Source: Rhodospirillaceae bacterium
GTDB lineage: Bacteria; Pseudomonadota; Alphaproteobacteria; Dongiales; Dongiaceae
Direction: 5' to 3'
Assembly (NCBI GenBank): GCA_008012315.1
Contig: SSEL01000001.1
Location: 186,001-250,000, forward strand
Length of the DNA stretch: 64,000 nt
The notes under the pieces were generated by a model that was not told the DNA's origin, made no database searches, and saw nothing but the letters and a program-made list of their open reading frames with translations. Below, piece by piece: positions 4,035 to 55,602 of this stretch (position 1 is its first letter; every line of letters begins with the position of its first letter). Both the position numbers and the translations under genes were made by a program.

Positions 4035-4958
4035 TCAGCGCGCCTGTAATTTGGTGCTGCCATTGCTATAGGGCGCCAGATGCAGGCGATCGCGATGCTG
4101 CTGCAGCAAGGTCATGATCGTGGCGGCGGTCTCCTCGATCGAACGGCGCGTCACATCGATCACCGGCCAGCCGTTTTCGTTGCAAAGCCGCCTGGCCAAG
4201 GCCACTTCCTCACGCACGGAATCGATATCGACGTAACTGGTATCGTCATCCTGGGCCAGCATCTGCAAACGGTTGCGCCGGATCTGCACCAGTTGCGTCG
4301 CATCCTTGGTGAGGCCGACAACCAGCGGGCTGCGCGCACTGAAGAGTTCCGGCGGCATGGGACAGCTAGGCACGATCGGCACATTGGCGACCTTGATGCC
4401 ACGATTGGCGAGATAGATCGCAGTCGGTGTTTTCGACGACCGCGAGACACCGACCAGGATCACATCGGCCTCGACATAGGACCGGCTCGACTGGCCGTCG
4501 TCATGGGACAACGCAAAATCCATCGCCTCGATCCGGGCGAAATAGCCGGCATCCAGTTCGTGCTGGCGCCCCGACTGGCCGCGCGCCTGCTGGCCGAAAT
4601 GCACCGCCAGGGCGGCGATCACCGGATCCAGGATCGGCACATAGGGCACGTTGAGCTGGCGGCAGCCATCGGTCAGCAAGGTCCGCAGGCGATCATTGAC
4701 CACGGTGTAAAGCACCAGGCCCGGATTCTGGGCGATGCCGGCGAGCACCTTTTCCATCTGCCCCGGCGTGCGGATCAGGGTCCAGCTATGCTCGATCGGC
4801 TGGATATTCTCGAATTGCACCAGGCAAGCGCGGGTGACGCTATTGATGGTTTCGCCCGTGGCATCCGACACCAGATGCAGGTGAAAGGCGCCTCGCTCTG
4901 GTTCGACCCGACCGGATTTCTCGCCTGATGGCTCGCTGTACTGGCCCATTTGCCGCAC
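4035..4958 (-). CDS. ppsR: Pyruvate,water/phosphate dikinase regulatory protein (DUF299)
   Basis: Bifunctional kinase/pyrophosphorylase family that controls PEP synthase or pyruvate phosphate dikinase by reversible threonine phosphorylation. The 307-residue protein has the family opening FHLHLVSDATGETINS and the nucleotide-binding loop GVSRSSKTPT. The first in-frame start is a GTG at 4958; an ATG three codons later (4949) is equally possible. It is the first gene leftward of the putative origin. In alphaproteobacteria a DUF299 gene facing away from hemE is the standard neighbour of oriC. Confidence 0.9.
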   Translation of the reverse strand: MRQMGQYSEPSGEKSGRVEPERGAFHLHLVSDATGETINSVTRACLVQFENIQPIEHSWTLIRTPGQMEKVLAGIAQNPGLVLYTVVNDRLRTLLTDGCRQLNVPYVPILDPVIAALAVHFGQQARGQSGRQHELDAGYFARIEAMDFALSHDDGQSSRSYVEADVILVGVSRSSKTPTAIYLANRGIKVANVPIVPSCPMPPELFSARSPLVVGLTKDATQLVQIRRNRLQMLAQDDDTSYVDIDSVREEVALARRLCNENGWPVIDVTRRSIEETAATIMTLLQQHRDRLHLAPYSNGSTKLQAR

Positions 4959-5496
4959 CCTTTTTCTTCAACGCATCCCTTCCCGGAACATACCGGTCCG
5001 GCGCCAATCGATCCACAAGGAAACTGTGGAAAACTGTCGAAGAAGCCGGGGATAAAATGTGCGTGACCGGCTTTGACTGAAGTTACACCGATTCATTCGG
5101 CCGGCATTGGGATCTTTATTCCAACTGTGACCCATCGGCCCGAACAAGCTGAATCCGGGGGATAAGAGTCCAGCCGCTGCCATGCACCGGATTCCGGCAA
5201 TTCGACAGCCCGGTTTTTCGCCGTTATACAGATTTAATCCCCAGGAGCCTGTGGACAATCAGCTGCCCGGCACGCAAAAAGTTATCCACCGAGTTATCCG
5301 GGGATCGGTCGGAAAGCGGGGATTCACAGGATTCACGCGACAACAAAAACCACTATAAGATTCAGATTCTTATAGTAATGAAGTAGTGGTGAGGTGGTGC
5401 CCCGGGATAAACCTGGAAATCCCGCTTGGCTTGACTCCCCATTCATCCGAGCCGAGTTTCCTCATTCGATTTGCCCCTATCCGAGACCGATGAGAC
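4959..5496. other. oriC: Putative chromosomal replication origin (oriC)
   Basis: A 538-bp gene-free region between divergent ppsR and hemE, the place occupied by oriC in Caulobacter and many alphaproteobacteria. It holds several near-consensus DnaA boxes (consensus TTATCCACA). TTTTCCACA lies on the minus strand at 5025-5033, TTGTCCACA on the minus strand at 5250-5258, and TTATCCACC on the plus strand at 5282-5290. Weaker GGGGATAA-type matches lie at 5047-5055 and 5157-5165, and partial ones near 5009 and 5294. An AT-rich stretch follows at about 5341-5380. Genes point away on both sides, as leading-strand genes would. Origin activity is inferred from position and motifs. Confidence 0.82.
5352..5376. 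repeat. Palindrome in the AT-rich part of the origin region, upstream of hemE
   Basis: Perfect 9-bp inverted repeat ACTATAAGA / TCTTATAGT separated by 7 bases. Outside it CCACTA (5350) is mirrored by TAGTGG (5384). It lies in the AT-rich stretch about 120 bp before hemE. It could be an operator for hemE, part of the DNA unwinding region, or a terminator-like hairpin; nothing in the sequence decides. Confidence 0.55.
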
Positions 5497-6537
5497 ATGA
5501 CCACGACCGATAAACTGATCCTGCGCAGCCTGAAGGGCGAAACCCTGACCCGGCCGCCCTTCTGGCTGATGCGGCAGGCCGGCCGCTATCTGCCCGAATA
5601 TCGCGCGGCACGGGCCAAAGCCGGATCGTTTCTCGATCTCTGCTATCATCCGGACCTGGCGGTCGAGGTGACCTTGCAGCCGATCCGGCGTTTCGGCATG
5701 GATGCGGCGATCCTGTTTTCCGACATTCTCGTGGTCGCCGACGGCCTCGGCCACAAAGTGCGTTTCGAGGAAGGGCGCGGCCCGCTCCTGGATGCACTTA
5801 ACCCCGATGACGATCTGCGGGGATTGCAGGTCGATCGGGTGGTGCCGCATCTGGCACCCGTCTATCAGACGGTTGCCGATATCAAGGCAAAGCTGCCGGC
5901 GGAAACCGCATTGATCGGCTTTGCCGGCGCGCCCTGGACGGTTGCCAGCTATATGATCGAAGGCTGCGGCAGCCGTGATTATGCCAAGGCGAAAAGCTGG
6001 ATCTACCGGCATCCGGATTTATTCAAGCGCCTGATCGATCTGTTGATCGAGGCGACCACGCGGCATCTCGCGGCGCAGATCGAGGCCGGCGCCGAACTGG
6101 TGCAGCTTTTCGATTCCTGGGCAGGCGCCCTGGATCATGCAGCCATGATCAACTGGTCGCTGCAGCCTTGCCGGGAAATCGTCACCCGGTTGCGCGCCCA
6201 ATATCCGGCCGTGCCGGTCATCGTCTTTCCGCGCGGCGTCGGGGCGGGTTATCTCGATTTTGCCCAGGCCGGTTTCATGCAGGGCCTGGGCCTCGATACC
6301 GGGGTGCCGCCGGATTGGGCGCGCAATGCCATGCCCGGCCAATTCGCGTTGCAAGGCAATCTCGACCCGCAGATCCTGGTGGCCGGCGGTGAGGCGATGC
6401 GGCGCAGCGTGACGAGCCTGCTGGCGGGATTGAACAGCCGTCCCTATATTTTCAACCTGGGCCACGGCATCGTGCCGGAAACGCCGCCGGAACATGTTGC
6501 TGCCTTGGCGGAATTGATCCGCAACTGGAAGTCTTAG
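5497..6537 (+). CDS. hemE: Uroporphyrinogen decarboxylase
   Basis: Decarboxylates the four acetate side chains of uroporphyrinogen III to give coproporphyrinogen III in haem synthesis. The 346-residue length is normal. The N-terminal PPFWLMRQAGRYLPEYR signature with its substrate-binding arginines and the GFAGAPWTVASYMIEG segment are intact, as is the C-terminal NLGHGI. It is the first gene rightward of the putative origin and is followed 67 bp later by hemH. Confidence 0.96.
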   Translation: MTTTDKLILRSLKGETLTRPPFWLMRQAGRYLPEYRAARAKAGSFLDLCYHPDLAVEVTLQPIRRFGMDAAILFSDILVVADGLGHKVRFEEGRGPLLDALNPDDDLRGLQVDRVVPHLAPVYQTVADIKAKLPAETALIGFAGAPWTVASYMIEGCGSRDYAKAKSWIYRHPDLFKRLIDLLIEATTRHLAAQIEAGAELVQLFDSWAGALDHAAMINWSLQPCREIVTRLRAQYPAVPVIVFPRGVGAGYLDFAQAGFMQGLGLDTGVPPDWARNAMPGQFALQGNLDPQILVAGGEAMRRSVTSLLAGLNSRPYIFNLGHGIVPETPPEHVAALAELIRNWKS

Positions 6538-39398: not shown

Positions 39399-39414
39399 TG
39401 TTTCACGTGAAACA
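39399..39414. other. parS: parS site 1
   Basis: TGTTTCACGTGAAACA, an exact match to the universal ParB-binding palindrome. It ends one base before the first in-frame GTG of mnmG, occupying the ribosome-binding position of that start. Confidence 0.97.
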
Positions 39415-39420
39415 GTGACG

Positions 39421-41370
39421 ATGACGATGGAAATGAACGACCGGTTCGATGTGGTGGTGGTCGGTGGCGGCCATGCGGGCGCTGAGGCGGCCGCAGCTGC
39501 GGCGCGCTGTGGCGCGCGGACCCTTTTGATCACCCATGATCCGGCCAAGATCGGTGAGATGTCCTGCAACCCCGCGATCGGCGGTTTGGCCAAGGGCCAT
39601 CTGGTGCGCGAGATCGATGCGCTGGACGGGATCATGGCGCGGGCGATCGATCGCGGCGGCATCCAGTTCCGGATGCTCAATCAGTCGAAGGGACCGGCCG
39701 TGCGCGGTCCCCGTGCCCAGGCGGACCGGAAGCTCTACCGCGAGGCCATCCAGGAGCTGCTGGCGGAACAGCCGAACCTGACCATCAAAGGTGCGGCGGT
39801 CGATGACATATTGCTGGACCAGGTGGGGCATATCGCCGGCATCGTCACCGATAGTGGCGAGCGGATCGGCTGTGCCGCCGTGGTCCTGACCACCGGCACG
39901 TTTCTGCGCGGGCTCATCCATTGCGGCGAAGAACGGACGCCCGCCGGCCGGGTGGGTGAGGCACCCTCGGTCCATCTGTCGGCAACCCTGGCGCGGCTGG
40001 GTTTTCCGCTGGGTCGGCTGAAGACGGGCACGCCGCCGCGTCTCGATGGCCGGACCATCGATTGGGATGGGCTGGACATGCAGCCGGGGGACAATCCGCC
40101 GCTGCCGATGTCCTATTTGACCGAGACCATCACCACGCCCCAGATTGCCTGCGGCATCACCTATACCGGCACGGCGGCCCACGAGCTGATCCGCGCGAAT
40201 CTACACCGCGCGCCGATGTATTCCGGGCAGATCGAAAGCACCGGGCCGCGGTATTGCCCGTCGATCGAAGACAAGGTGGTGCGGTTTGCCGACAAGGACC
40301 GGCACCAGATCTTCCTGGAGCCGGAAGGCCTCGATGATCCCACGGTCTATCCCAACGGTATTTCCACCTCGCTGCCGGCGGATGTCCAGGCGGGTATCCT
40401 GAAAACGATCCCGGGCCTGGAAAAAGCCGTCATGCTGCGGCCGGGCTATGCCATTGAATATGACTTCGTGGATCCGCGCGAATTGACGCCGGCCTTGGAA
40501 ACCCGCCGGGTCCCGGGCCTGTTTTTCGCCGGACAGATCAATGGCACGACCGGATATGAGGAAGCCGCCGCCCAGGGGCTGATGGCGGGGATCAATGCCG
40601 CCCGGCGGGTTGGCAGCCTGGGGGCGGCGGGTGTTGCCCTGGACTCCGCCGGTCTTCTGGAAGCGCCGTTCATCCTGGACCGGGCTGACGCCTATATCGG
40701 CGTGATGATTGACGATCTTGTTTCACGTGGAACATCCGAGCCCTACCGCATGTTCACCAGCCGCGCCGAATACCGGTTGCGGCTGCGCCAGGACAATGCC
40801 GATCAACGACTGACCGAAAAGGGCATCGCGCTCGGCTGTGTCGGCGGCAGGCGCGCCGGGATTTTCCGCGAGAAGATGGAAAAGATCGCCGCGGCACGGG
40901 CCCTGATGCAGGGTCTGACCGCGACACCGACGGAATTGGCGCGGCAGGGGCTCAATATCAACCAGGATGGCGTACGGCGCTCCGCCTTGGACCTGCTGGT
41001 CTATCCGGATATCGATTTGCCGCGCCTCACCGGGATCTGGCCGGAATTGCAAGGGCTCAGCCCGGCCATCGCCGAACAGATGGAAATCGACGGCCGCTAT
41101 GCCGGCTATCTGAAGCGCCAGGAGGCCGATATCCATGCTTTCCGCCGGGACGAGGCGCTGCTATTGCCGACTGACCTCGATTACGATGCCGTCCCGTCGC
41201 TCTCGACGGAAGTTCGCGAGAAGTTGAAAGCCGCCCGTCCGGCGACTTTGGGCGCTGCGGGCCGCATTTCCGGCGTCACGCCAGCGGCCCTGACGATCCT
41301 CTTGCGCTATGTTCGCCGCCGGCCCCAGGCAGAAGGCCATAAGATGGAAGGCGACAAGATTAGCGCATGA
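39421..41370 (+). CDS. mnmG: tRNA uridine-5-carboxymethylaminomethyl modification enzyme
   Basis: FAD-containing partner of MnmE. The roughly 649-residue protein starts with a dinucleotide-binding [16 protein letters not shown] block and has [23 protein letters not shown], the catalytic loop TGTFLRG, and [17 protein letters not shown] for FAD binding. Several starts are possible (GTG at 39415, ATG at 39421, 39427 and 39433). One parS site lies just upstream and another inside the gene at 40719. It is followed by rsmG with a four-base overlap. Confidence 0.95.
40719..40734. other. parS: parS site 2, one mismatch, inside mnmG
   Basis: TGTTTCACGTGGAACA differs from the palindrome at one position (G for A at base 12). 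It lies in the coding sequence, which has accommodated it as DLVSRGTSE. Confidence 0.85.
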
Positions 41371-42056
41371 CGACCACCAACGCCGTCGGACCCAACTTCG
41401 GGCCAGACCAATTTATCTCGAGACTCCAGACGCTCCTGCCGCATGTTTCACGTGAAACATGCGCGCTCTGGCGCGCGCGCCTGGAAACCTATGCTGCCTT
41501 GCTGGTGAAATGGCAGAAGGCGATCAATCTGGTCGGCCCGGCCACCCTGCCGGATCTGTGGCGCCGCCATATGCTGGATTCGGCTCAACTCCTGCCGCTT
41601 TTGCCCGATGGGGAAGGCGTCCTAACCGACCTCGGCAGCGGCGCCGGTTTTCCCGGGCTGGTGCTCGCCGCCATGACCGGCCGGCAGGTTCACCTCATCG
41701 ATTCCGATGTCCGCAAATGTGCCTTCCTGCGGGAGACCGCCCAGGCCATGGGAGTGGGTGACCGAGTCGTGGTCCATGCCCAACGGTTCGATGCCCTGGC
41801 CGCTTGGCCCTCGGCCGTCATCACCGCCCGGGCCTGTGCCGGTTTGGACGATCTTTTGTCTCATTCTGCGCCTTTCGCCACGGCGGAGACCGTTTTTCTG
41901 CTGCTGAAGGGGGCCAAGGTCGATGAAGAATTGACCGCTGCGGCCAAGCACTGGACAATGGCGGTGGAACGGCATCCGAGCATTGCCAATGCCGGAAACG
42001 AGCCACCCGGGACCATCCTAAAACTCTGCAATCTCAATCGACGGACAGTATCGTGA
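41367..42056 (+). CDS. rsmG: 16S rRNA (guanine527-N7)-methyltransferase
   Basis: Methylates G527 of 16S rRNA with SAM. The 229-residue protein has the N-terminal [33 protein letters not shown] and the SAM-binding loop [16 protein letters not shown], then [15 protein letters not shown]. Its start overlaps the mnmG stop codon (ATGA) and its end overlaps the parA start (GTGA). parS site 3 lies in its first 90 bases. Position between mnmG and parA is the standard bacterial order. Confidence 0.93.
41444..41459. other. parS: parS site 3, inside rsmG
   Basis: Exact TGTTTCACGTGAAACA embedded in a longer 22-bp palindrome (41441-41462, flanking GCA/TGC). It lies in the 5' part of rsmG. Confidence 0.97.
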
Positions 42057-42898
42057 CCGAGCCCGCGCGCGAGACATCGACTTCACGGCAACCGCGAATC
42101 ATGGCGGTGGCCAATCAGAAAGGCGGGGTGGGAAAGACCACCACGGCGGTCAATCTCGCCACGGCCTTGGCGGCCTGCGGCAAGCAGGTGCTGATCATCG
42201 ACATGGACCCTCAGGGCAATGCCTCGACCGGTCTCGGCGTCGAACGTGCCGACCGGGCGACGGGCTCCTATGAGGTGCTGATCGAGGGCGCCAGCATTGC
42301 CGAGGCGACCAGGAAGACCCTGGTCCCGAATATGTCCATCGTACCGACCTCGCCGGACCTGGCCGGGGCGGAGATCGAGCTGATCGACCTCGACCGGCGG
42401 GAATTCCGCCTGCGCGATGCGCTGGCCCAGGCGGATCTGGTTTATGACTTTATTCTTATCGATTGCCCGCCCTCGCTGACGCTCCTGACACTGAATGCCA
42501 TGGTGGCGGCGGATTGCGTGCTGGTGCCGCTGCAATGCGAGTTCTACGCGCTGGAAGGATTGAGCCAGCTCATCAAGACCGTCGAGCGGGTGAAGAAGGT
42601 GCTCAACCCGGTGCTGGAAATCCAGGGCGTCGTCCTCACCATGTATGACCGCCGCTCCGGCCTCAACGAGCAGGTGGCGGCGGATGTGCGCGCCTTCTTC
42701 GGCCTGAAGGTGTATGAGACCGCCATTCCCCGCAACATCCGCATCGCCGAAGCGCCGAGCCATGGCAAGCCGGCTTTGCTCTACGACATCCGCTGCGCCG
42801 GCAGCCAGGCCTATATCCATCTCGCCAGCGAAGTGCTCAAGCGCGAGCAAGGGCTGGTCGGCCGATCACTCGCAGGCGTAGCTGACCCGGTCGCTTGA
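42053..42898 (+). CDS. parA: Chromosome partitioning ATPase ParA
   Basis: Soj/ParA-type ATPase that moves ParB-parS complexes to opposite poles. The 281-residue protein has a deviant Walker A NQKGGVGKTTTAVNLA, DMDPQGNASTGLG and the Walker B-type FILIDCPPSLTLLT. The GTG start overlaps the rsmG stop codon by four bases. It is co-transcribed with parB, which starts 55 bp later. Confidence 0.95.
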   Translation: MTEPARETSTSRQPRIMAVANQKGGVGKTTTAVNLATALAACGKQVLIIDMDPQGNASTGLGVERADRATGSYEVLIEGASIAEATRKTLVPNMSIVPTSPDLAGAEIELIDLDRREFRLRDALAQADLVYDFILIDCPPSLTLLTLNAMVAADCVLVPLQCEFYALEGLSQLIKTVERVKKVLNPVLEIQGVVLTMYDRRSGLNEQVAADVRAFFGLKVYETAIPRNIRIAEAPSHGKPALLYDIRCAGSQAYIHLASEVLKREQGLVGRSLAGVADPVA

Positions 42899-42953: not shown

Positions 42954-43925
42954 ATGGCCGCGAAAAAGCATATCGGTTTGGGTCGGGGTTTATCGGCGCT
43001 GTTGGGTGGCGACGAGGTGCCGGTGAAGGCCGGCAGCAATGCGCCGGCCGCCGCCGAGGCATCCTCATCCGGTAGCGCCGCCGCGACAGCCCCCTCATCA
43101 GGCGGCAGCAATGCGCAGCGTCATGCGCCGATCGAGTTTCTGCATCCCGGCAAGTTCCAGCCGCGCCAGGTCTTCGACGAAGAGATGCTGGAAAATCTCG
43201 CCCAGTCGATCCGCGAAAACGGTGTCCTGCAGCCCATTCTCGTGCGCGACCATCCGCAGCATGGGGGCCAGTTCGAGATCGTCGCCGGCGAACGCCGCTG
43301 GCGCGCGGCACAGCTCGCGCAGCTGCATCAGGTGCCGATCGTCTTTCGGGCGCTCGGCGACCGTGAAGTCTTGGAAATCGCCATCATCGAGAACGTCCAG
43401 CGCCAGGACCTCTCGCCGCTGGAAGAAGCCCAGGGCTATGACCGCTTGATGGCGGAATTCAAGTACACCCAGGAGCAGCTCGCCGAACGCATCGGCAAGA
43501 GCCGGCCGCATATCGCCAATATGCTGCGCCTCTTGGATCTGCCGGAGCCGGTGCGCAAGTTGCTGGCCGACGGCAAGCTGACCGTCGGCCATGCCCGCGC
43601 CTTGATCAAGGCCGATGAGCCCGCCGCACTCGCGGAACAGGTGGTGGCCGAGGGCTTGAACGTCCGCCAGACTGAGGCGCTGGCCCAGGCGCATAAGTCG
43701 AGCGCAACCGCCAAGCCGAATGGCAAAAATGCGCCGCGCAGTGCCCAGCTCGCCAAGCCGGCAGCTGAAAAGGATGCCGATACCAAGGCGCTGGAACGTG
43801 ATTTATCGCACCGTCTCGGCCTCAAGGTGGAGATCGGTTTCGACGGCGCGGCCGGTGGCCAGGTCGTGGTGCATTACCGCAGCCTGGAACAGCTTGACGA
43901 CATCATCGCCAAATTGAACAGTTAG
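42954..43925 (+). CDS. parB: Chromosome partitioning protein ParB
   Basis: CTPase clamp that binds parS and spreads on DNA. The 323-residue protein has the ParA-activating N-terminus KKHIGLGRGLSALLG, and a low-complexity Ala/Ser stretch. The catalytic box GERRWRAAQLA follows, then the helix-turn-helix TQEQLAERIGKSRPHIANMLRLLDLP that reads parS. The C-terminal DLSHRLGLKVEIGF is the dimerisation domain. Three parS sites lie within 3.6 kb upstream. Confidence 0.95.
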   Translation: MAAKKHIGLGRGLSALLGGDEVPVKAGSNAPAAAEASSSGSAAATAPSSGGSNAQRHAPIEFLHPGKFQPRQVFDEEMLENLAQSIRENGVLQPILVRDHPQHGGQFEIVAGERRWRAAQLAQLHQVPIVFRALGDREVLEIAIIENVQRQDLSPLEEAQGYDRLMAEFKYTQEQLAERIGKSRPHIANMLRLLDLPEPVRKLLADGKLTVGHARALIKADEPAALAEQVVAEGLNVRQTEALAQAHKSSATAKPNGKNAPRSAQLAKPAAEKDADTKALERDLSHRLGLKVEIGFDGAAGGQVVVHYRSLEQLDDIIAKLNS

Positions 43926-52830: not shown

Positions 52831-53967
52831 ATGAAGAAAGTCCTTTTGGGCAGCACCACGCTGCTCGCGGCGGGTTTGCTGGCAAGCCCGGCCTTTGCTG
52901 CCGACGGCATCAAGCTCAATCTCGGCGGCTTTTTCCGCACCGCCGTGCTGGTGAATATCGATGACCACGGCAACGGCGATCTCGGCGACAACCGTTATAA
53001 CGACGGTGTGTTCTCCGACGGCGAAATCTATTTCATGGGTAAGACGAAGCTCGATAACGGCATCACCGTCGGCGCCCGCGTCGAACTCGAAGCCGAGCAG
53101 GCGAACGACCAGATCGACGCCGCCTATGCCTTCTTCCAGGGCGGTTTCGGTGAATTCCGCATCGGCACGCTGTCGGGCGCTCTGGGCGGCTTCTGCGTGA
53201 CACCGGTCGGCGGCACCACCAATTTCGGCGCGTTCACGCAGAACCAGGTCATCAACAACGCCAATCAGGGCCTGCCGAACAATCGCGCCGCCATCTGCCG
53301 CAGCGTCGATGGCATGATCGGCTCGGACAAAAGCGAAAAGCTCGTCTACATGACGCCGAATTTCGGTGGCTTTCAGCTGGCCGTGTCCTGGGCGCCGAAT
53401 GGCGGGCATGAATCCGCGGAAGTGACCGACTTCCACAGCGGCATGCCGGCCGCCGTGGACGGCGAACAGCGTAATATCCTTGATGCCTATGCCATGTTTA
53501 CCCGCGATTTCGACGGTTGGGGCATCCAGTGGGGCGGCGGCGGCTCCTGGGCCACCTCAATGGGCGGCAATCCGGGTGACAACCAGAAGAAGGGCGCTTT
53601 CTACCAGAGCGGCCTCAACCTGACCTTCGGCAACTTCTCGATCGGTGGCGGTTTCGAATATATGCAAAACGTCATCCAGAAGGCCGACTATCATGACGAC
53701 TTCTGGGTCGCCGGCGGCGGCATGGCCTATAAGATCGACGCCTATACGGTCGGTCTGCAGTACAGCCATAACCAGGGCGATTACACCGACGACGGCGTGG
53801 AGCGTAAAACCAACACGATGGCGTTGACCGGCAAATATGCCATGGGCCCGGGCATCAGCCTGGACGGCACCCTCCAGTACACCTGGGCGGATGGCGACAA
53901 CGGCGACGCCGCGCATGGCGGCTATGATTCCGTCGGCATCGGCCTCGGTACGGCGTTCAACTTCTAA
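52831..53967 (+). CDS. Outer-membrane porin, paralogue 1
   Basis: A 378-residue porin with a signal peptide (KKVLLGSTTLLAAGLLASPAFAADG, cleaved after AFA) and a beta-barrel rich in alternating aromatic and Gly/Asp residues, ending in a C-terminal Phe (GLGTAFNF), the outer-membrane insertion signal. Clearly a paralogue of the next gene: the N-terminal LGGFFRTAVLVNIDD, VCVTPVGGTTNFGAF-type and GMPxxVDGEQRNI regions are nearly identical. Probably a trimeric general porin. GGGGAA precedes the ATG. Confidence 0.9.
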   Translation: MKKVLLGSTTLLAAGLLASPAFAADGIKLNLGGFFRTAVLVNIDDHGNGDLGDNRYNDGVFSDGEIYFMGKTKLDNGITVGARVELEAEQANDQIDAAYAFFQGGFGEFRIGTLSGALGGFCVTPVGGTTNFGAFTQNQVINNANQGLPNNRAAICRSVDGMIGSDKSEKLVYMTPNFGGFQLAVSWAPNGGHESAEVTDFHSGMPAAVDGEQRNILDAYAMFTRDFDGWGIQWGGGGSWATSMGGNPGDNQKKGAFYQSGLNLTFGNFSIGGGFEYMQNVIQKADYHDDFWVAGGGMAYKIDAYTVGLQYSHNQGDYTDDGVERKTNTMALTGKYAMGPGISLDGTLQYTWADGDNGDAAHGGYDSVGIGLGTAFNF

Positions 53968-54429
53968 GAGCCGGGTCGACCGGGCGGAATAGCCGCCCGG
54001 CCACTTCCCTGAATGCCGCTTTCTTAAGTACCTGCGAATCGAGTCGGGAGGTTGGGTGTTTCCGCGCCGAATCTCCCGCCCCTGACAAGGAGGAGAAACT
54101 CCCGCGAAATCCAGCAAAAGCAGCCCTATTCAGCCCAGATATCACTTGAGCATTTCCAGCCAAGTTTATGATTCAATGTGGAGTCTTTCCCTGTGGCGTA
54201 ACTGCCACAGTCGGGGAAAAATGCCACAGCATTTGCTTTAATTGGTTTGACACTCTTCGGGCTTTCCGCAAAGTTATCGCAGTTCGCTGGCCTAAAGGCC
54301 GTTTGGTCGATTTCACCGTCACCGGTGCTTGTTGCTCGGTGAAACCCGCTGAACAGACCGGCTTGCGAACGAGGGGCATCCGGTGTCGAAAAGGCGCCGG
54401 TGGCAATCGCAAACTTAGGGAATCTCGAG
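53968..54429 (+). promoter_or_regulatory. Inter-porin region with hairpins
   Basis: A 462-bp stretch. An 8-bp stem CCGGGCGG/CCGCCCGG lies just after porin 1 (53980-54000) without a T-run. A longer hairpin at about 54187-54218 pairs TTTCCC-TGTGGC with GCCACA-GTC-GGGGAAA around GTAACT. A TTGACA lies at 54247-54252. A leader RNA or an attenuator is possible for porin 2. Confidence 0.45.
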
Positions 54430-55602
54430 ATGAAGAAAGTTCTCCTGGGAACATCGGCTCTGCTCGGCGCCGGCCTTGTGGCCAGCCCGGCTTTCGCCGC
54501 CGATGGGATCAAGTTGTCGCTGGGCGGTTTCTTCCGCACTGCTGTTCTCGTGAACATCGATGACGAAGGCAATGGCGATCTGGGTGACAACCGTTATGAC
54601 GACGGTGTGTTCTCCAACGGCGAAATCTATTTCCTCGGCAAGACCACGCTGGACAACGGCATCACCGTCGGCGCCCGCGTTGAATTGGAAGCCGAACAAT
54701 CTGGCGACCAGATCGACGCCGCCTATGCGTATTTCTCCGGCGGTTTCGGTGAACTCCGTATCGGTTCGCAGAACGGCGCCCTGATGTCGCTGTGCGTTAC
54801 CCCGGTGGGCGGCACCACCAATTTCGGTGCCTTCTCGCAGGACCAGGTGATCAACAACGCCTTCTCCGGCTACTCGGCTGGTATCTGCAACAGCGTCGAC
54901 GGTTTCGGCGACAATCTGAGCGGTGCCGACGCGACCCGTTCGCAGAAGATCGTTTACATCACCCCGAATTTCGGTGGCTTCCAGCTCGGCGTTTCCTGGT
55001 CGCCGAACGGCGGTCATGAAAGCACGCAGGTTAGCGGCTTCCACAGCGGTATGCCGGAATCGGTCGATGGCGAACAGCGCAACATCGTTGACGCCTATGC
55101 CAACTACACCCGCGACTTCGACGGCTGGGGCATCAATGCCGGCTTGGGCGGCAGCTGGACCCTGTCGACTGGCGGCAAGGGCAGTGGCGTCGACAAGAAC
55201 GACTACTATCAGGGTGGTTTGAACCTGACCTTCGGTAGCTTCTCGATCGGCGCGGCTGGCGAATACTACCATGACTATGCCAGCTTCGGTGATGACTCGT
55301 CGGGCGACGGCTGGGTTGTCGGCGGCGGTATGGCCTACAACATCGACGCCTGGACCGTCGGCTTGCAGTACAGCTACGCGGATTGGGAATTCACCCGTCG
55401 TGTTGATGACATTCCGCAGAACGACAACGACGACGACCGCAGGATCAACACCGTCGCGCTGAGTGGCAACTACGACATGGGCCCCGGCATCTCTCTCGAT
55501 GCCACTGTGCAGTATGTCTGGGCGAATGCCGATGGCGGTCACACCAACGGCGACAACTACAACTCGCTGGGTATCGGCCTCGGTACGGCGTTCAACTTCT
55601 AA
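54430..55602 (+). CDS. Outer-membrane porin, paralogue 2
   Basis: A 390-residue porin with signal peptide KKVLLGTSALLGAGLVASPAFA and the C-terminal GLGTAFNF. It is slightly longer than its neighbour because of a larger loop (residues about 150-175 and near 325). The start at 54430 aligns with the paralogue; an upstream in-frame ATG (54400) would break the signal peptide. A strong terminator follows. The tandem arrangement suggests duplication and divergence of surface loops. Confidence 0.9.
   Translation: MKKVLLGTSALLGAGLVASPAFAADGIKLSLGGFFRTAVLVNIDDEGNGDLGDNRYDDGVFSNGEIYFLGKTTLDNGITVGARVELEAEQSGDQIDAAYAYFSGGFGELRIGSQNGALMSLCVTPVGGTTNFGAFSQDQVINNAFSGYSAGICNSVDGFGDNLSGADATRSQKIVYITPNFGGFQLGVSWSPNGGHESTQVSGFHSGMPESVDGEQRNIVDAYANYTRDFDGWGINAGLGGSWTLSTGGKGSGVDKNDYYQGGLNLTFGSFSIGAAGEYYHDYASFGDDSSGDGWVVGGGMAYNIDAWTVGLQYSYADWEFTRRVDDIPQNDNDDDRRINTVALSGNYDMGPGISLDATVQYVWANADGGHTNGDNYNSLGIGLGTAFNF

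Follow-up and report, generated by a model that had tools for sequence, protein, structure and literature searches.

The stretch of DNA analysed, referred to here as the window, comprises 64 kb (bases 186001-250000 of the 256,443-bp contig C29, in an assembly of 5.72 Mb and 93 contigs) and includes a 538-bp intergenic region between the divergent genes ppsR and hemE, the identities of which are backed by curated NCBIfam profiles. To the left of ppsR lie the minus-strand genes maf, aroE, coaE, a glutamate racemase gene and dnaQ, and to the right of hemE the plus-strand genes hemH, hemJ and rho. The preliminary description had stated that all neighbours diverge, which holds over some 5 kb in either direction, as the left-hand genes are all on the minus strand as far as dnaQ and the right-hand genes all on the plus strand as far as rho. 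The AT content of the gap was 47.6%, compared to 37.4% contig-wide. An Rfam search of the gap region gave no match, and none of the plasmid records compared with it was similar. The features of the locus, in window positions, are as follows.

4035-4958, minus strand: ppsR (formerly DUF299/COG1806), left boundary (NF003742, 334 bits)
4959-5496, no strand: ppsR-hemE intergenic region, oriC candidate, 538 bp
5025-5033, minus strand: DnaA box TTTTCCACA, one mismatch to TTATCCACA
5047-5055, minus strand: W-type box TTATCCCCG, a motif enriched in relatives
5090-5437, no strand: nine GANTC (CcrM) sites, starting at 5090, 5151, 5166, 5190, 5321, 5330, 5359, 5365 and 5433
5157-5165, minus strand: W-type box TTATCCCCC, a column kept by the nearest relatives as GGGGATA or GTGGATA
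5235-5243, plus strand: weak W-type box TAATCCCCA
5250-5258, minus strand: DnaA box TTGTCCACA, one mismatch to TTATCCACA
5282-5290, plus strand: DnaA box TTATCCACC, one mismatch to TTATCCACA
5320-5337, plus strand: two degenerate box-like repeats, GGATTCACA and GGATTCACG, with one GANTC in each, beside the AT-rich element
5338-5387, no strand: AT-rich probable unwinding element, 70% AT over 50 bp
5497-6537, plus strand: hemE, right boundary (TIGR01464, 397 bits)
39399-41459, no strand: parS cluster (39399 exact, 40719 with one mismatch, 41444 exact)
42053-42898, plus strand: parA (NF041546, E 1e-32, below the cut-off of that profile, and position beside parB)
42954-43925, plus strand: parB (TIGR00180, 202 bits)

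No exact nine-of-nine DnaA box was found in the gap, and exactly three sites were found with at most one mismatch to TTATCCACA, at 5025, 5250 and 5282, in agreement with an earlier count of at least three eight-of-nine boxes; the further weaker boxes also mentioned there were recovered, with a total of eight sites at up to two mismatches. The whole 64-kb window holds eight one-mismatch sites, and shuffles give 5.5, but the three in 538 bp compare with about 0.046 expected (P ~2e-5, Poisson arithmetic). No other 538-bp stretch of the 256-kb contig reaches three sites at up to one mismatch or eight at up to two, the contig means being 0.045 and 0.68 per 538 bp, respectively. Likewise, three of the five perfect TTATCCMC matches in the contig fall in the gap, and when one mismatch was allowed the gap held seven, against a best of four elsewhere in the contig. 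These scans covered 256 kb of the 5.7 Mb, plus 20 kb around dnaA, which is located on a separate contig (C75) and in whose scanned surroundings no DnaA-box cluster was detected. As TTATCCCC contains the core of TCCCCA, the weak W-box of Caulobacter (PMC4285127), a scheme of strong plus weak DnaA boxes would be the natural reading of the sites in the gap.

The same gap was compared at 111 loci from the same family and from other Alphaproteobacteria (a few being one contig met twice), and the divergent ppsR-hemE pair was present in 108 of them, the window's own included. Across these loci the density of TTATCCAC and TTATCCCC boxes in the gap exceeded that of the flanks about 100-fold, and TTATCCMC boxes reached 4.1 per kb in gaps compared to 0.04 per kb in flanks, with a density above that of the flanks in 98 of 108 loci and no perfect box in 10. 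One of the gaps without a perfect box is that of G004, a complete genome of the same family, where only two sites with one mismatch were found. The most enriched gap 8-mers belong to TTATCCACAG and TTATCCCC and include TATCCACA, CCTGTGGA (TCCACAGG) and GGGGATAA (TTATCCCC). A position matrix obtained by expectation-maximisation was rejected because it had settled on a low-complexity pattern. In a congener of G004, G008 (locus L193, G008:C1:5638001-5656000), the gap measures 1824 bp, compared to 499 bp in G004, and appears to contain a gene for a transporter-like protein, located between ppsR and the origin module.

Measured from the AT-rich peak, some 70 bp upstream of hemE, the boxes of the relatives have preferred positions and strands, with a minus-strand box near -330, plus-strand boxes near -190 and -115, a minus-strand box near -65 and a plus-strand box near -40. 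The polarity statistic was 203, against a maximum of 87 in 2000 random strand assignments, and is to be read as a description and not as a p-value, because related sequences are not independent. The window fits this layout partly. Its minus-strand box TTTTCCACA (5025-5033), at about -335 relative to the AT-rich centre, has a minus-strand counterpart at that distance in the relatives, and its degenerate plus-strand repeats GGATTCACA/GGATTCACG lie beside the AT-rich element and align with TTATCCACC or TGATTCACC of the nearest relatives.

The AT-rich element at 5338-5387 ranks in the top 0.08% of 50-bp windows of the contig, and in most ppsR-hemE loci an AT-rich peak is found 40-100 bp upstream of hemE. 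A near-perfect inverted repeat is present inside the element (5352-5376). The window sequence folds better than its shuffled versions (z about -2.4), but the folding of the relatives was overall no better than that of shuffles (median z -0.3), and therefore no conserved hairpin or other structure is claimed for it. Runs of at least four ACN units occur in 23 of 108 gaps, compared to 0.3 expected, the longest in the window gap being of two. In these 23 loci the runs, for example ACTACTAC, are near the hemE-side AT-rich element and resemble DnaA-trio motifs; the nearest genus carries CATCATCATC in their place.

The density of GANTC in the gap was the maximum of the contig, with nine sites in 538 bp (16.7 per kb) compared to a contig-wide 1.5 per kb and to 2.7 per kb in the remaining intergenic sequence of C29 (Poisson p 2e-5 at the latter rate); dinucleotide shuffles gave 3.1 expected sites (p 0.004). 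In 107 gaps, the window's own included, GANTC reached 9.2 per kb compared to 1.6 in the flanks, and at 66 loci with longer flanks it was 10.1 in gaps versus 2.1 in other intergenic regions, the latter delimited by a crude criterion based on open reading frames. Among all 16 XYNY'X' palindromes, GANTC was the most enriched over shuffles (1.9-fold), and its excess persisted without the approximately one fifth of sites that overlap box-like sequences. The second highest intergenic count of the contig, five GANTC in 432 bp, is found in the gap starting at 53968 between two similar genes in tandem, apparently coding for porins (52831-53967 and about 54430-55602).

A clear CcrM homologue, matching the CcrM of entry 6pbd at E 9e-161, is encoded in the genome; PF18284, tried as a CcrM profile, corresponds to the wrong family. 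Among genomes without detected CcrM (nine rows, of which that of G035 is a wrongly extracted 7.7-kb stretch, which makes their pooled ratio unusable), two still have 5 and 8 GANTC sites, although one of these two assemblies is only 86% complete. The ppsR-hemE pair is missing from most of the genomes without CcrM. Several GANTC sites are known in the origins of Caulobacter and its close relatives (PMC3973325). The available part of a survey of orphan methyltransferases names four enzymes whose motifs form conserved clusters at origins, namely Dam and the enzymes for TTAA, CTCGAG and a haloarchaeal motif, and CcrM is not among the enzymes named there (PMC4752239). The cluster raises the question of whether CcrM methylation times initiation in alphaproteobacteria besides Caulobacter. 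That the origin of this lineage carries a selected cluster of CcrM sites, whose hemimethylation after initiation would delay or tune re-initiation, appears to us a rather unlikely proposal, and the normal DNA content profile of Caulobacter without CcrM (PMC3973325) counts against a timing role. If it were true, a control like that of Dam and SeqA would have been arrived at independently, without the CtrA sites of Caulobacter.

A skew minimum elsewhere had been named beforehand as evidence against an origin in the gap. On the contig, the cumulative GC-skew minimum was found at window position 5651, with a mean skew of about -9.6 bases per kb before the site and +6.6 after it and a significant change point (block permutation p 0.002), although the minimum is shallow and its position good only to about 17 kb; a single change point fits best at window -12 kb, and the statistic hardly varies between -17 and +17 kb. 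As the skew of the source organism is contig-level in a 93-contig assembly, chromosome-wide skew was sampled in the complete relative G004, in which the maximum, from positive to negative, lies between 2.55 and 2.70 Mb. With hemE at 5.593 Mb of 5.865 Mb, its antipode is, by arithmetic, at 2.66 Mb; the point opposite dnaA is at 2.93 Mb, outside that range. The second skew turn of G004 is coarsely placed, at about 5.55 to 0.30 Mb. The finely sampled skew is noisy near hemE.

The linked parS and parAB of the preliminary description are indeed present 34-38 kb away. The three parS sites (39399, 40719 and 41444) lie 34-36 kb to the right of the gap and adjoin parAB, and those at 39399 and 41444 are the only exact parS 16-mers in the whole assembly. 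In the relatives the nearest parS is also on the hemE side, about 10-27 kb from hemE (distances by arithmetic).

The box density, skew minimum, exact parS sites, gene order, box architecture of the relatives and absence of a cluster in the scanned surroundings of dnaA are independent lines that agree, and support the origin proposed in the preliminary description. From these sequence data, we consider it very likely that 4959-5496 is the chromosomal oriC, homologous in position and kind to the origin of Caulobacter. The sequence elements, their non-random density, their conserved arrangement, the skew minimum and the parABS link are directly established. DnaA binding, unwinding, initiation and segregation at this locus may be proposed from them, in such a way that DnaA-ATP would bind the stronger boxes at 5025, 5250 and 5282 and, through cooperativity, also those of the weaker TTATCCCC type at 5047, 5157 and 5235. 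A DnaA filament would then spread across the degenerate boxes (5320-5337) into the AT-rich element (5338-5387), which would melt and let in the DnaB helicase, and ParB bound to parS 34-36 kb rightward would separate the sister origins.

A divergent intergenic region could also be a mere promoter of ppsR and hemE, its boxes serving DnaA-regulated transcription, with the origin elsewhere, for example at dnaA. DnaA doubles as a transcription factor and the distance between the AT-rich element and hemE is like that of a promoter, but a sigma-70-like promoter was not found in the gap (for an alphaproteobacterium, a test of little power), eight box-like sites exceed the needs of a promoter, and the surroundings of dnaA are without a box cluster. 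As the skew minimum, parS and gene order also favour the gap as the origin, this explanation seems very improbable. The broad skew change point (-17 to +17 kb) would likewise accommodate an origin in a different intergenic region within about 20 kb. However, no other 538-bp stretch in 256 kb matches the box count, and the conserved box arrangement of the relatives sits in the ppsR-hemE gap itself, which leaves a nearby origin with a probability lower still. An oriC in the gap thus remains the preferred reading, and it fixes a probable replication start for a little-studied lineage. The comparison also reveals a conserved, oriented layout of DnaA boxes in about 100 hemE-type origins, nearly all of them without CtrA sites.

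Among known systems, the closest likeness is with Caulobacter crescentus, whose origin (Cori) was experimentally mapped between hemE and COG1806, where that of Rickettsia was also predicted (PMC1914354). Like the region described here, Cori is flanked by hemE and the COG1806/DUF299 gene (404 bp compared to 538 bp here), has raised AT (43.6% vs. 32.8% for its genome; 47.6% vs. 37.4% for the contig here), and presents stronger and weaker DnaA boxes, the weak class with TCCCC, an AT-rich element and parABS linkage (PMC1914354, PMC4285127, PMC4468827). In contrast, the main boxes here are near TTATCCACA and not the TGATCCACA G-box. Neither strict nor loose CtrA sites (TTAA-N7-TTAA), a feature of Cori-type control, nor the IHF site WATCAANNNNTTR with up to one mismatch were found in the window gap, which agrees with a published remark that most other origins of this group show no CtrA sites (PMC4468827); strict CtrA sites occur in only 2 of 108 ppsR-hemE gaps. 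The origin of Rickettsia prowazekii shares the boundary genes hemE and COG1806 (PMC1914354), but belongs to an AT-rich genome, and the CtrA and IHF sites reported there were not found here. The oriC of Escherichia coli has a different gene context and GATC/Dam where GANTC/CcrM is found here, although it is similar in outline, in that its DnaA boxes adjoin an AT-rich element and target sites of an orphan adenine methyltransferase are clustered there. Since the origins of Caulobacter and Rickettsia share its gene pair, the putative origin of the window would be of an already known kind, ordinary in its make-up, with the dense GANTC cluster as its one less ordinary detail.
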